Source: Parazoarcus communis SWub3 = DSM 12120 (lineage in GTDB: Bacteria; Pseudomonadota; Gammaproteobacteria; Burkholderiales; Rhodocyclaceae). From it: DNA of 64,000 bases. The stretch is from assembly GCF_003226565.1 (NCBI RefSeq), contig NZ_QKOE01000002.1, forward strand, positions 310,001 to 374,000. Reading direction: 5' to 3'. The position numbers and the translations under genes are program-made. Below the pieces are notes generated by a model, which was not told where the DNA came from, ran no database searches, and saw only the letters and a program-made list of their open reading frames with translations. Within the stretch, counting starts at the first letter, position 1. Every line of letters starts with the position of its first letter. Positions 30,743 through 35,580 of the stretch are shown here, piece by piece.

Positions 30743-31423
30743 ATGCGTTCCATTCTGCGAGCTTTTGCCTTCCTTGTCATTACTGCGCCGGTCTGGGCTG
30801 CGGGTGGTCTGATGAGCCTGACTGACAGCGAGACGAGTGGCGGACTCAAGGAGGCGCTGACTCAAGGGGCCAGCAAGGCGGTCGATCTGCTCGGTCGCGA
30901 TGGCGGCTTCATGAACAACCCGAAGGTCAGGATTCCGCTGCCCGACATGCTTGCACAGGCCGAGCCGCTGATCCGCATGAGTGGGCGTGGCAAGGATCTC
31001 GACAAGCTCGTCGCCACAATGAACCAGGCCGCCGAGGCCGCGGTGCCGCAGGCAAAGACCCTGCTGGTGGATGCGGTCAAGGGCATGAGCGTCAGTGACG
31101 CCAAGCGCATCCTGACCGGCGGTGACGATTCGGTGACGCGCTATTTCCGCGACAAGACCGAACGCCAGCTTACCCAGACCTTCCTGCCAGTGGTCAAGCA
31201 GAACACCGACAAGCTTGCGCTGGCCGGGCAGTACAACAAGCTGGCCGGCCAGGTTGCCGGCGTCGGCCTGATGAAGAGCGAGGATGCCCAGGTCGAGAAC
31301 TACGTGACCCGCAAGGCGCTGGATGGTCTCTACCTGATGATCGCCGAGGAAGAGCGCGCGATCCGCAAGAACCCGGTCGGCGCAGTGGGCAATCTGGCCA
31401 AAAAGGTATTTGGCGCGCTCTGA
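30743..31423 (+). CDS. DUF4197 family exported protein
   Basis: The 226-residue protein has a signal peptide (MRSILRAFAFLVITAPVWAA) followed by a DUF4197 domain. The domain opens LTDSETSGGLKEALTQGASKAV and contains KVRIPLPDMLAQAEPLIRM, DAKRILTGGDDSVTRYFRDK and the terminal ENYVTRKALDGLYLMIAEEE. Function of the family is unknown. A ribosome-binding site (ctggag) precedes the ATG. A 42-bp part of this gene (31131-31172) is repeated at 35427-35468 on the far side of the accessory insertion. Confidence 0.9.
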   Translation: MRSILRAFAFLVITAPVWAAGGLMSLTDSETSGGLKEALTQGASKAVDLLGRDGGFMNNPKVRIPLPDMLAQAEPLIRMSGRGKDLDKLVATMNQAAEAAVPQAKTLLVDAVKGMSVSDAKRILTGGDDSVTRYFRDKTERQLTQTFLPVVKQNTDKLALAGQYNKLAGQVAGVGLMKSEDAQVENYVTRKALDGLYLMIAEEERAIRKNPVGAVGNLAKKVFGAL

Positions 31424-31535
31424 TCTAGCGCGCCAGCGCCTGGCTCCAGCGTTTGTACAGCCGGGTCATCATGTCATGCATGGCCGCGGTCCGGCGTTCG
31501 CTGTCGGCGGCAGTGTCGGCGCGGCTGCCGGCTGC
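31423..31535 (+). repeat. 113-bp direct repeat, left copy (amidotransferase 3' end)
   Basis: This stretch, starting at the last base of the DUF4197 stop, matches 35468-35580 at about 103 of 113 bases by eye. It is the C-terminal coding end of the glutamine amidotransferase gene, stop codon included (TAG at 31425-31427 on -), and most differences are synonymous or conservative. Confidence 0.9.
31425..31535 (-). pseudogene. 3' remnant of a class I glutamine amidotransferase gene
   Basis: On - it encodes the last 36 or so residues of the amidotransferase at 35470-36192 (AAGSRADTAADSERRTAAMH and onward to QALAR stop), with the frame intact. The rest of the gene is missing; at 31535/31536 it joins island sequence. 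Differences from the intact copy look like allelic divergence (V/A, R/K, R/Q), which suggests it came from a related strain's allele. Confidence 0.85.
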
Positions 31536-31862: not shown

Positions 31863-32564
31863 TCAGGGCCGCCAGGCCTTGCTAGCCAGATTCGAGAGCG
31901 CCGACGCCGACTGGCGCACGGGCACACGGGTGAAGAAGTCATCCTGCGCTACGACCTGCGCATCCTGCGGCAGCACCGCCAGAAACTTTCCCGCCAACCC
32001 ATCGTTCGCGTCCTCGCGCGTCTGCCACATCGCCAGAAACTGCGCGCGGCTGTAGGTACGATTACCCAGCGACGGATCGGCCAACCACACCGTGTCGCCG
32101 CTGATGCCGCGCAAAACGGTGAAATGGTCGTCCTTGCGGTGCTTCACGTACAGAATGACCGGCATCTTTAGCCGCGCGAGTTGCTCCCAACTCGCAGCAA
32201 AGCCCTGCGCCCGAAAGCCGAACTGCGGCAATGCGCGCGCCATGTCTTCGAAGCTGGCCCGGTCATCGCCCTTGTCCATTGCCTTCAGCAAGGCTTCCTC
32301 GGTCACATCCTGGCCATAAAAGCTGTTGAGCAAGGTGGCCAGAGAGGCCGCGCCGCAAGAGTAGTCCAGATCCTGCTTGACGATGCGCGCGTCGCGGCGC
32401 GCCTTCCAGCTTTGCACCGGGACGACGCCGTGGACGGAGTGGGTGACGAGCAGGACGCCTTCGGCACGCTGAGGCGAGCTTGCATCCGACGTGCCGGACG
32501 TGTCCGCCAACGCCATGGCGCTGACCGAAGCCATCGCGACGGCGGCGACAAGGTGCGGCTTCAT
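31863..32564 (-). CDS. periplasmic C39-like cysteine peptidase (FapD-like)
   Basis: The 233-residue protein has a Sec signal peptide (MKPHLVAAVAMASVSAMALA) and then a bacteriocin-processing C39 peptidase domain. The oxyanion Gln64 and nucleophile Cys70 are in QDLDYSCGAASLATLL, the catalytic His147 in KDDHFTVLRG, and the Asp163 in WLADPSLGNRTYS. It lacks the membrane and ATPase domains of bacteriocin ABC exporters, so it works alone in the periplasm, like FapD of the Pseudomonas Fap amyloid system. The likely substrate is the precursor at 33549-33890, whose processing motif it should recognise. An upstream GTG (32573) is an alternative start. Confidence 0.85.
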   Translation of the reverse strand: MKPHLVAAVAMASVSAMALADTSGTSDASSPQRAEGVLLVTHSVHGVVPVQSWKARRDARIVKQDLDYSCGAASLATLLNSFYGQDVTEEALLKAMDKGDDRASFEDMARALPQFGFRAQGFAASWEQLARLKMPVILYVKHRKDDHFTVLRGISGDTVWLADPSLGNRTYSRAQFLAMWQTREDANDGLAGKFLAVLPQDAQVVAQDDFFTRVPVRQSASALSNLASKAWRP

Positions 32565-32572
32565 GAAAAGCA

Positions 32573-33151
32573 CTAGCCCACGCCCTTCGGCCCCGCGCCC
32601 GTAGGCGGCGGGACAACCCCGAGCATGGTCAGCACGATGCCGAGCACCGCGAACACGACCATGGCCGCCAGCATGGCCGGGATAAAGCTAACGACGATGC
32701 CGCCAATGCTGTAGCCAAAACTCGCCTTGGGAATGGCCCCCGCCAGCGCATTGACCCCGACCCACGCCGAATACAGCCACAGGGGCAGCGTGAACAACGA
32801 GGGAACGCCTAGCGCGACCAGACCAGCGCCCACAGTGTCGGCCATCAGCCATGACGCAGCGACTAGGTTAAGCAGATCGCCCTGACCGTCCCAGCGGCCG
32901 CCGCGCTTCATCCACCAGCGCAGCACGGCGACGATGATCAGGAACGCCACCCAGGTGGTGAGCAGTCCCATGATCACGGCCAGCCACAGCGGCGGTGCGG
33001 GCATGTCCGGAGGCGCGGCACGCAAGCTCGGGTCGAGGCCAATCAGCAGGCCGATGAGCGAAATGGCCAGCAGCGATTGCCAGCGCGGGAAATCGAAGCG
33101 CGAAAAGGGGAGTTCGCGCAGGAGGAAGAGGGGAAATGCAGTTTGGAACAT
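32573..33151 (-). CDS. polytopic membrane protein of the C39 cassette
   Basis: The 192-residue protein has about five hydrophobic helices (near residues 25-42, 52-78, 95-112, 118-140 and 152-178). The arrangement is reminiscent of Yip1-type inner-membrane proteins, but I cannot assign a family. It lacks an ATPase motif. Its stop is directly adjacent to or overlaps the start of the C39 gene, so the two are translationally coupled. Within the cassette it may hold the peptidase or precursor at the inner membrane; that is inference. Confidence 0.7.
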   Translation of the reverse strand: MFQTAFPLFLLRELPFSRFDFPRWQSLLAISLIGLLIGLDPSLRAAPPDMPAPPLWLAVIMGLLTTWVAFLIIVAVLRWWMKRGGRWDGQGDLLNLVAASWLMADTVGAGLVALGVPSLFTLPLWLYSAWVGVNALAGAIPKASFGYSIGGIVVSFIPAMLAAMVVFAVLGIVLTMLGVVPPPTGAGPKGVG

Positions 33152-33335
33152 GTCGTGTGTATGTCCGTTTCAAAACCAACCCAGCATCCAGCCAACGAGA
33201 CCTACACCAAGGATCGTAACTTCGGCGACGGTAAGTCAAAAGGTTACTGTTCCCATAGGAATATCCAGGCGTTCTGCTCAGGGGAGATTTGCATCGTCAT
33301 CGCTTTCCATTTCTCCCCAAGTCGATTCCAAAAAT
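33152..33335 (-). other. gap inside the C39 cassette, no convincing gene
   Basis: Lower in GC than the surroundings. A hydrophobic run (TILGVGLVGWMLGWF) ends in a stop at about 33167, but it has no start codon in frame. It may be a decayed small gene or chance. Confidence 0.4.
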
Positions 33336-33494
33336 TCAGAAGAACAACCAGTCGCGAATCGCTACCGCCGCCATCAGGACGAGCGCAAGCACTATCAATA
33401 TGATATGAAAAAGCCAAAATATGAACGAACCTGTCCCTGGGTGGTTCCACTGTATAGAACGCAAGTAGTTGAGTATCCTGTTCATGATGTTCAT
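33336..33494 (-). CDS. 52-aa single-helix small membrane protein
   Basis: A short frame encodes 52 residues starting MNIMNRILNYLRSIQW. One hydrophobic helix (about residues 24-45: FIFWLFHIILIVLALVLMAA) is followed by a charged IRDWLFF tail. It lies 54 nt after the precursor stop on the same strand and about 185 nt before the polytopic membrane protein. A ggtgg sequence 5 nt before the ATG is a modest ribosome-binding site. Size and single helix recall immunity or escort proteins of peptide systems, but this is speculative. It has no family I recognise. Confidence 0.5.
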   Translation of the reverse strand: MNIMNRILNYLRSIQWNHPGTGSFIFWLFHIILIVLALVLMAAVAIRDWLFF

Positions 33495-33548
33495 CAGGCC
33501 ACCAGAACACCCGCAGCTATTCGGTGGCCTTTCAGCGTGGCGCTTAGA

Positions 33549-33890
33549 TCACCACCTGCTCCAGTAATAGCGAACCGCATTGCTAACGTGGTAGGCGGGC
33601 ATGTATGCGGAGCTTTGATAGAACGTCCAAGCTGCTCCTGACAAAGCTGGTGCGTAATAGAGGATTGGCCACCAAGCCCCTTCAGTTTCCTTCATCTCCT
33701 GCTGCGACAACGCAGCCAGTTGCATCGGCCGCCCCGCCTGCTCGAACATTGCATTGATGTCCGTCTGGCTGAACGTCGCGATTGGTTGCGCGGCTTGCAG
33801 GTTCTGCACCTGCGCTTCGCTGGCGTGCGCCTGGGCCGACAGCAGGCCCGCCATGACCAGCGTTAGTGCTGCGTGTTTGAACTGCTTCAT
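33549..33890 (-). CDS. Sec-secreted precursor with embedded double-glycine-type leader
   Basis: The 113-residue protein has three parts. A Sec signal peptide (MKQFKHAALTLVMAGLLSAQAHA) is followed by a spacer to about residue 56. Residues 57-72 read QLAALSQQEMKETEGA. This fits the double-glycine leader pattern L-S-x-x-E-(L/M)-x-x-(I/T)-x-G-(G/A) used by C39 peptidases. Cleavage after residue 72 would release a 41-residue peptide beginning WWPILYYAPAL, with 5 Trp, 7 Tyr and 1 Phe. The start has a strong RBS (gaaggag, 5 nt spacing). The gene lies between the outer-membrane barrel and the membrane/C39 genes. No homologous family comes to mind. A 6-bp hairpin (gcctcg/cgaggc, 33925-33947) precedes it. 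Confidence 0.75.
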   Translation of the reverse strand: MKQFKHAALTLVMAGLLSAQAHASEAQVQNLQAAQPIATFSQTDINAMFEQAGRPMQLAALSQQEMKETEGAWWPILYYAPALSGAAWTFYQSSAYMPAYHVSNAVRYYWSRW

Positions 33891-34038
33891 ATAGACTCCT
33901 TCATGTCACGAAGTACAACAACAAGCCTCGAAACAGACTCCCGAGGCACCCATTGACGGTGTTTGCGTCACCGGCAATTCCTCGCGGGCGGCTTGTCGCC
34001 CGTCTCTTTTCGTGGTCGCACAAGGTGCAGCGTTTCCA

Positions 34039-34923
34039 TTAAAACGTGTACAGCCAGTTCGCTCGCAACTCCGAACCGCCGCGCCCCGAGGCGTTGACCT
34101 TCAGGGTGGCGTTCAAAGTATTTCCCTTGGCAAATCCGTAACCGACGCCCAACAGCAGATCGGTGGCCGTGCGGTCGACGCCCTGACGCTCTCCATCGAA
34201 GCGGTCGGCTTGGCGGCGCGTCCATTGCACGCCAGTGGTCAGCGTAACGCGGTCGTTCACTGCAAACCCTACTGACGGATTGAGCAACAACAGGTTGCCG
34301 GGTTGGTAGTCCCGCGTGCCGTCGCGACGGGTCTGGTTGAAGCGGTAGGCGGCGGTTAGCGAGAACACTATCGGGTCGATGGCCTTATAGGTGGTGACAC
34401 CGAGCATGACCGACTTGAAGCTGGCGCTATCCCGCCGGTGCTTCTCTCGCAGTGCGATTTCGACAAAACCAAGAACGGCGGGACCGTCGTCGTCTTTCCT
34501 GAACTGGTAGTTGATGCCCGTCCAAGCATCGGCGAAACCCGCTTCGCTGCTCGATGTCGTGCCGCCCACGCCGCTGCTGCGGTGGCTCGACGACAGGCTG
34601 CTCGTACGAGCATAGACCTCGGCCTTGGCCGTCAGGCCATAGCGCATGCCGAAGGTGGCAACCAGGGTGTCGCTGTTGCCGATGCTCTCACCAACGAGTG
34701 TGGGCACGGTTACGAACGAGGTGGGCCCGGTCTGGACGATGATCGGCTCACCCGTTGACACACCACTGCGATCCATGTTGGCGTAGGCCAACGACAGATC
34801 GAGTTTGACCTTGCCTTTGTCGGTGATGAGGTCCTCCACGTTCAGCGGTAGATCAGCCCAAGCAACGGGGGAGACGGTCATAAGCAGGCCAGTAAGAACA
34901 CGAGAAATACGGATGAAGCTCAT
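34039..34923 (-). CDS. outer-membrane beta-barrel protein of the C39 cassette
   Basis: The 294-residue protein has a signal peptide (MSFIRISRVLTGLLMTVSPVAWA) and then alternating beta strands ending in an aromatic residue (ELRANWLYTF), the outer-membrane barrel signature. Strand-like repeats such as TLVATFGMRYGLTAKAEVYA, AWTGINYQFRKDDDG and VMLGVTTYKAIDPIVFSLTA suggest about 12 strands. It resembles the broad transporter group that includes phenol-degradation MetA-like barrels. FapF of the Fap system is a functional analogue that carries C39-processed subunits out, but no coiled coil is seen here. The start at 34923 fits a promoter just upstream (ATG at 34962 would be inside the promoter). 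Confidence 0.7.
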   Translation of the reverse strand: MSFIRISRVLTGLLMTVSPVAWADLPLNVEDLITDKGKVKLDLSLAYANMDRSGVSTGEPIIVQTGPTSFVTVPTLVGESIGNSDTLVATFGMRYGLTAKAEVYARTSSLSSSHRSSGVGGTTSSSEAGFADAWTGINYQFRKDDDGPAVLGFVEIALREKHRRDSASFKSVMLGVTTYKAIDPIVFSLTAAYRFNQTRRDGTRDYQPGNLLLLNPSVGFAVNDRVTLTTGVQWTRRQADRFDGERQGVDRTATDLLLGVGYGFAKGNTLNATLKVNASGRGGSELRANWLYTF

Positions 34924-34961: not shown

Positions 34962-34989
34962 TTTTTATTTGTCATCTATTGGTTGTCAA
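34962..34989 (-). promoter_or_regulatory. putative sigma-70 promoter of the C39 cassette
   Basis: On -, TTGACA (34984-34989) and TAAAAA (34962-34967) are separated by 16 nt. Transcription would start a few bases downstream, leaving a leader of about 30 nt to the ATG at 34923. The sequence is clearly AT-rich against the local background. Confidence 0.45.
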
Positions 34990-35084: not shown

Positions 35085-35426
35085 ATGCTTCAGAGTCGTC
35101 GAGAAAGGGGTTGAGTTGGACTCTGCCTGCGGCTCCCCTTTATGCGTGACGGCGCTCCAGCGCTGGGGGCGTGCGTCGAACTCGCGACGCTATAGGCCAT
35201 CGTGTGCAGCCATAGCGGCGATGTCTTCGCCATCGTGGCGCTGTTCCGGCGTGACGAACTTGATGGCCGAGTGACGGTGCTCGCGGTTGTACCGGCCCAC
35301 GACCTGCATCACCTATGGCTGCGGGGCCTGGAGCGTAGTACCGTCCCCGCTCGGTTAGCCGGGGCGTACTTGAGGGCGCGGAAGAAGGCCTCGACCAGGG
35401 CCTTGTCATCGGAGATGCCGGGGACG
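35085..35426 (-). pseudogene. decayed IS3-family transposase (OrfB C-terminus)
   Basis: Translating - across frames gives pieces of the DDE transposase end: GISDDKALVEAFFRALKYAP, then after a frameshift VGRYNREHRHSAIKFVTPEQ and RHDGEDIAAMAAHDGL, an in-frame stop, and FDARPQRWSAVTHKGEPQAE. The YN-EHRHSAI-FVTPEQRH block is diagnostic of IS3-family integrases, and the order is correct. The frameshift and stop make it non-functional. It abuts the right junction of the accessory insertion. Confidence 0.8.
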
Positions 35427-35468
35427 CGGTGACGCGTTATGCCCGCGACAAGACCGAACGCCAGCTTA
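35427..35468 (+). repeat. 42-bp copy of DUF4197 gene sequence at the right junction
   Basis: This matches 31131-31172 inside the DUF4197 gene at about 39 of 42 bases. It then passes without a gap into the 113-bp amidotransferase repeat, skipping 31173-31422. It is a leftover of the original DUF4197/amidotransferase junction. Confidence 0.85.
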
Positions 35469-35580
35469 TCTAGCGCGCCAGCGCCCGGCTCCAGCGTCGA
35501 TACAGCCGGGTCATCATGTCGTGCATCACCGCGGTGCGGCGCTCGCTGTCGGCGGCAGTGTCGGCGCGGCTGCCTGCTGC
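35468..35580 (+). repeat. 113-bp direct repeat, right copy
   Basis: The right copy is the true 3' end of the intact amidotransferase gene, with its stop at 35470-35472 on -. The partner is 31423-31535. The two copies bracket the accessory insertion of about 4 kb. Confidence 0.9.

Follow-up and report, generated by a model that had tools for sequence, protein, structure and literature searches.

In the 64,000-nt stretch of Parazoarcus communis SWub3 = DSM 12120 analyzed here (positions 310,001 to 374,000 of contig NZ_QKOE01000002.1; hereafter the window), a minus-strand row of five open reading frames (ORFs) encodes, in order, an outer-membrane barrel, a secreted precursor, a 52-aa protein (P0003), a 192-aa protein and a C39 peptidase (P0001; 31863..34923), all of which were found where an earlier note on this DNA had placed them. 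We consider it probable that this cassette is a peptide export unit related to the nap island of Neisseria and the Fap system of Pseudomonas, and that it carries one exchangeable, bacteriocin-like pair of toxin and immunity protein. The computed support for this prediction comprises the gene set, the cleavage motif, a sharp conservation boundary, exchange of cargo, covariation of cargo and partner gene, and the predicted barrel fold. The earlier note had pictured a self-contained cassette; it is not a one-off but belongs to a large family of related cassettes with exchangeable cargo, compared here at 52 loci. These loci are partly non-independent, as L040/L041 and L052/L053 are near-copies, L069-L074 come from one genome and L077/L078 from another.

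In the mechanism that we propose, Sec would move the precursor to the periplasm, as its signal suggests, where the C39 peptidase, with its intact catalytic residues and a signal of its own, would recognize LS..EM..T.GA and cut after G-A. The freed 41-residue aromatic, cationic peptide would exit via the FapF-like barrel, to which fold and gene neighborhood point, and, as a membrane-active toxin of the bacteriocin kind, would attack kin or competitors, with the 52-aa one-helix protein protecting the producer; these last two roles draw on the covariation of cargo and partner in the family. The 192-aa, five-helix protein would be an accessory of the window lineage. Action of the peptidase in the periplasm is supported by analogy with FapD, as described in the available part of the report on that enzyme (PMC5557850). 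The earlier note had proposed that the peptide is cut in the periplasm and released by way of the barrel, and the conserved unit of Sec-type precursor, Sec-type C39 peptidase and FapF-like barrel fits both steps.

Leader, cleavage site and cargo of the precursors

The window precursor carried LSQQEMKETEGA at residues 61-72, and the site shared by the precursors was LS..EM..TEGA, a GA variant of the double-glycine type that keeps the spacing of the classical double-glycine leader consensus. Among 37 precursors, M-7, T-4 and G-2 were each retained in 36, E-8 in 35, L-12 and S-11 in 34 each, and A-1 in 31; the failure of conservation in homologues that the earlier note had named as fatal to its reading was thus not seen. 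Conservation ended sharply at the cut, with an identity of 0.55 over the 22 residues before it and 0.16 over the 22 residues after it (561 pairs). A hidden Markov model (HMM) of the leader recovered 46 precursors in the loci examined (matches above 8 bits, after L058 [+, 4141], L072 [-] and a leader-only fragment at L075 had been dropped), and 35 of the 52 loci had one at the threshold of a separate count by locus. The set of 37 resulted from removal of the near-copies L041 and L053, the two precursors of L055, and the second precursors of L048 and L045 together with L072, L073 and L081, in which the next gene was P0002, another precursor or C39. Of the 39 precursors with enough upstream residues, 34 had a Sec-like signal as defined by a simple criterion of our own.

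The part of the precursor after the cut site is exchangeable between leaders. Specifically, near-identical leaders preceded different cargo within one locus in L048 (two precursors) and in the Acinetobacter plasmid p12SAAs474 (three), while the same cargo stood behind different leaders in L035/L045, L043/L079 and L057/L076 and, by eye, in p12SAAs474. The window cargo, with 13 aromatic residues among its 41 and a predicted isoelectric point (pI) of 9.2, belonged to a cargo family also present in L032, L039, L058 and L078. Across the family, cargos included aromatic, glycine-rich or glycine-zipper-like, and soluble-looking types, and some exceeded 100 residues; the soluble-looking ones gave a nuclease-like impression by eye, without a family match. 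Among the matches listed, one precursor passed the NCBIfam class IIb bacteriocin model TIGR03949 (22.9 bits, cut-off 21.5). Neither NCBIfam nor Pfam gave a match for the window precursor at E<=0.1, and Pfam yielded no convincing cargo family, its matches being scattered over 24 families among 44 members. Matches to BRANT_His_rich were discarded, as they fall on the signal (residues 2-27 and 2-42 in the two matches inspected).

Used as bait against its own genome and 60 relatives, the precursor recovered only its own gene, the cassette being absent from the relatives or too divergent for this query; the peptidase proved the useful bait. Cargo G+C content (GC) failed as a sign of transfer (p 0.39), and leader GC lay 2.5 points below that of the C39 gene (20/32, p 0.04). 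Additionally, six peptidase matches (L069-L074) occurred in one genome of the same class, G378, where the barrel follows C39 and the precursor matches, whose cargos are 247 and 209 residues long, were very weak (E 0.3 and 0.5).

Partner genes of the cargo

The gene next to the precursor tracks the cargo, not the leader. When the partner was taken blindly, as the longest ORF starting within 200 nt after the precursor, 15 of the 49 similar-cargo pairs were alike in partner as well; 2000 permutations averaged 1.4 such pairs and never exceeded 6. The top 49 pairs by leader likeness, in contrast, contained only 3 similar partners, a number reached in 324 of the 2000 permutations. With hand-picked partners (37 in all, including that of the first precursor of L079, which lies at +597 nt and was recognized by its likeness to that of L057), the count was 17 of 46 similar-cargo pairs (permutation mean 1.7, maximum 8).

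Partner topology, judged by a hydropathy rule on the hand-picked set, also followed the kind of cargo. Partners of aromatic cargos had one transmembrane segment (TM) and 44-65 aa in 5/5 cases, those of soluble-looking cargos had 0 TM in 5/5, and those of glycine-rich cargos had 1-5 TM in 25/25, with at least two in 24; the partners in L033 (2 TM) and L059 (1 TM) fall outside these three cargo groups. The 52-aa gene of the window occupies this cargo-specific position, and its product is best read as a predicted immunity protein.

Only the partner gene was clearly poorer in G+C than C39, in 29 of the 31 loci compared and by an average of 12 points (0.46 for P0003 and 0.64 for C39 in the window), a difference that may derive in part from membrane-protein composition. 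At L057 of Neisseria dentiae, an ORF 868 nt after the precursor was partner-like, being 55% alike to the partner of the second precursor of L079; as its cargo is not in the locus, it is possibly an orphan immunity gene.

Peptidase, barrel and genomic setting

P0001 matched PF03412 (E 4e-25), and C73, H150, D166 and Q67, numbered in the GTG-start frame, were invariant in 35 C39 sequences. That frame spans 31863..32573, and the ATG at codon 4 (32564) is the better start. The match to the NCBIfam FapD equivalog reached 93 bits, below the cut-off of 330, and P0001 apart, none of the five proteins matched NCBIfam at E<=1. In a 52-sequence tree the cassette peptidases formed one clade (support 100/99) separate from FapD-like and FilB-like peptidases; the long branches of L081 and L068 leave deep placements unsure.

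The barrel matched PF13557 (E 2.3e-9), and its AlphaFold2 model, with a predicted local distance difference test (pLDDT) score of 79, contained 12 long strands by our count from the strand list. A profile of 20 barrel sequences found FapF in the PDB, placing the pore in the FapF fold; a PDB search with the single barrel sequence had returned one match at E 1.9, which we judged to be chance. The signals of the C39 peptidase and the barrel were assigned by visual inspection. The barrel lay within 7 kb of C39 in 40 of the 52 loci; of the other 12, six have less than 2.5 kb of upstream sequence and six more than 5 kb. The earlier note would have abandoned the cassette if the two genes mostly occurred apart, yet they kept company: all 8 of 300 genomes of the order with the barrel (E<=1e-20) had C39 (E<=1e-30) 0.2 to 4.2 kb away, and in the genus of G325, which probably holds N. 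dentiae to judge by the identical contig coordinate of C39 in G1061 (contig 21) and in the record behind L057, both were present in the same 10 of 46 genomes, on one contig in 9 of the 10. The barrel was broken or in pieces in two genomes of that genus, G1065 and G1070.

The earlier note had mentioned two small membrane proteins together, and both are in place, although they are not equivalent, as the 52-aa protein holds the partner position and the 192-aa protein is a lineage-specific accessory. The latter, modeled as five long helices (AlphaFold2 pLDDT 83 in the best model and 61-70 in four others) and without a PDB fold match at E<=0.001, was present in 15 of the 52 loci, alongside several cargo families (those of the window, L034, L035 and L037).

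C39 at E<=1e-30 was present in 10 of 300 genomes of the order. In wider samples the cassette peptidase was rare, with E<=1e-40 matches in 7 of 369 genomes drawn from the class and in 2 of 398 drawn from the phylum. A pattern-based peptidase scan of named genomes gave 32 loci. Named members were mostly beta- and gamma-proteobacteria, with two Helicobacter metagenome-assembled genomes (MAGs; Campylobacterota) and one Nitrospirota MAG in addition. A mobilizable 6.3-kb Acinetobacter plasmid carried barrel, precursor and C39; its gene table names the peptidase and lists a barrel piece and the precursor as hypothetical, and in the two Acinetobacter plasmids examined the genes beside the cassette C39 were annotated as hypothetical. 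No phage record matched at E<=1e-20.

Separately, at 20 loci of FapD-like and FilB-like C39 peptidases in the same order (L012-L031), a Sec-type protein carried the post-signal motif L...RG[GR][FYAI] in 11 cases. With six larger regions from the same genomes added, the motif was present in 15 of 26, and in none of the reversed-sequence controls; the pattern was drawn up after three of those loci had been seen. This motif is a candidate mark of the proteins on which FapD-type peptidases act.

In the window, 116-nt direct repeats flank the cassette; one is the 3' end of a gene that looks amidotransferase-like by eye, and the other closes a DUF2059-type frame that is short, with 119 aa where the relatives in L032 and L033 have 295 aa. 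This arrangement suggests that the cassette arrived by recombination. The gene that precedes the cassette is also present in the four congeners, but no amidotransferase gene was found within the 1.5 kb examined there, so that no empty site was recognized. A second pair of direct repeats, 47 nt long and 89% identical, lies at 31131-31177 and 35427-35473. Upstream of the barrel, whose open frame begins at 34962, a remnant of an IS3-type transposase C-terminus was seen by eye (35180-35400, minus strand), and an annotated IS3 family transposase also adjoins the cassette in p12SAAs474. In L032 (2316-3203) and L033 (1709-2596), as in the window, the cassette is accompanied by a secreted protein of the DUF2059 type.

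Features of the cassette and its flanks in the window
Feature	Position	Strand	Basis or remark
Outer-membrane beta-barrel, FapF/NapF-like, 12 strands	34039..34923	-	N-terminal signal ends A-W-A
Precursor, 113 aa	33549..33890	-	
Precursor leader, residues 1-72	33675..33890	-	Leader HMM and alignment; Sec-type signal with A-H-A at 21-23, followed by the recognition segment
Cargo, predicted mature peptide, 41 residues (and stop codon)	33549..33674	-	
52-aa one-TM protein P0003, predicted cognate immunity protein	33336..33494	-	Partner position after precursor; GC 0.46
192-aa membrane protein, five long helices, accessory in a subset of loci	32573..33151	-	13-sequence alignment
Sec-type C39 peptidase P0001, NapP/FapD-like	31863..32564	-	PF03412; invariant residues; own clade
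Short DUF2059-type protein, 119 aa	31469..31828	-	Relatives in L032 and L033 are 295 aa; DUF2059 found on the L032 relative
Left copy of 116-nt direct repeat flanking cassette	31420..31535		91% to right copy; closes short DUF2059-type frame
Right copy of 116-nt direct repeat	35465..35580		3' end of a gene, glutamine amidotransferase-like by eye

Alternative readings and known systems

Several observations weigh against a toxin/immunity pair. P0003 had no blastp match among the partner ORFs, and its best shuffle Z seen was 4.3, with L078, so that its case as an immunity protein rests on position and topology. Most pairs with similar cargo had partners without detectable likeness, and many of these pairs are weak glycine-rich likenesses. 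Moreover, the peptides of the nap island, the Naps, gave no inhibition of competitors in the published tests covered by the available part of that report (PMC11798529). The main rival among the readings, as for Nap, is self-lysis: a programmed-death island whose peptide would strike the producer population in stationary phase, its effect tuned or timed by the small membrane protein. The closest studied relative argues for it, since the nap island (napF, napABC, napI, napH, napR, napP) combines a C39 peptidase and a FapF-related channel with cationic double-glycine (GG) peptides, 16-36 residues long, as well as a putative immunity protein, napI being LagC-like, and since mNapA and mNapC lowered stationary-phase survival, in line with a role in autolysis, while killing of competitors was not seen in the portion of the work at hand (PMC11798529). 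The predicted window peptide, at 41 residues and pI 9.2, is similar to the Naps in size and pI. Hypervariable cargo with tracking partners, the sharing of cargo across genera and the pairing of soluble-looking cargo with soluble partners nevertheless fit strain conflict better than they fit a conserved self-lysis role; we regard self-lysis as unlikely, though ahead of the other alternatives.

A Fap-like system for functional amyloid or adhesion, in which the peptide would serve as fiber or nucleator, would account for the FapF fold of the barrel and for the sub-threshold FapD match of the Sec-type C39, but it is improbable given the separate peptidase clade, cargo that is short, diverse and by eye free of Asn/Gln repeats, and partners that track that cargo. 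The genome also held no second match to the FapD model at E<=0.001, and no Fap-subunit-like repeats were seen by eye in the five proteins, for which no Fap-subunit model was searched. Double-glycine leaders also serve peptide pheromones, and peptides that vary along with a matching partner would suit pherotypes, the one-helix protein acting as sensor or modulator of a quorum signal. The five proteins include no kinase or regulator, however, partners range from 0 to 5 TM and are of unrelated kinds, and cargos reach 100 residues and more, making signaling the least likely of these readings.

Beyond the window, we see even chances that the toxin/immunity reading extends to a class of polymorphic toxin delivery that is mobile and widespread among diderms, in which Sec transport, C39 release at a GA site and exit through a FapF-fold pore would serve interchangeable pairs, from membrane-active peptides to soluble toxin-like domains, with the Nap islands as one domesticated branch. 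If so, the Neisseria self-lysis island would become one branch of a broad antagonism system, a test set for cargo choice by FapF-type pores would be at hand, and the cleavage site of periplasmic C39 peptidases would be defined; many uncharacterized candidate pairs of peptide and immunity protein are on offer.

Among known systems, the earlier note had named Fap as the nearest analogue, a place that now falls to the nap island. The gonococcal C39 adjoining hisS shared 60% identity with P0001 over 182 aa, and we infer that it is napP from the hisS flank given for the island, which within the genus is largely confined to gonococcus and meningococcus according to the available part of its description (PMC11798529). 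Island and window share a C39 homologous to the presumed NapP, a FapF-related channel and a small peptide with a GG-type site, and the N. dentiae locus L057 shares the C39/barrel family with the window cassette. The window differs in having one peptide of another kind, aromatic and 41 aa long, whose partner has one helix, and in its additional five-helix protein; the family differs in its glycine-zipper-like and soluble-looking cargo and in its presence on plasmids. Fap (FapA-F) likewise combines a 12-strand pore of the FapF fold with a Sec-type C39 peptidase in the periplasm, whereas in the cassette the peptidase belongs to another clade and scores below the FapD cut-off, and a peptide cargo and partner appear to replace the amyloid subunits. 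Secretion by Fap is restored when FapD bears an OmpA signal and requires the active cysteine of FapD, whose target was called unclear in 2017 in the part of that report available (PMC5557850), in contrast to the clear leader motif of the cassette.

Class II bacteriocins and microcins resemble the cassette in their double-glycine leader, small cationic or glycine-zipper cargo and adjacent small membrane protein, and LS..EM..T.GA is a leader site of that type. Unlike bacteriocins exported by C39-bearing ATP-binding cassette (ABC) transporters, the five window genes include no ABC transporter, precursor and peptidase both carry Sec signals, and a dedicated barrel is present. With polymorphic toxins, such as those of contact-dependent inhibition (CDI), the family shares a constant trafficking part, a swappable C-terminal part and a matched adjacent gene, to which the partner-like gene without its cargo at L057 adds a further likeness; it differs in precursors of mostly ~90-200 aa and in probable release by a periplasmic C39 and a FapF-like pore. 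The cassette architecture is not new, because the nap island is of the same kind. That report was the only close match in a literature search, thin on subscription journals, that found no paper on the wider family (PMC11798529). So far as the searched literature shows, what is added here is the wide spread, the modularity of cargo and partner, soluble-looking cargo with soluble partners, and a home on plasmids.

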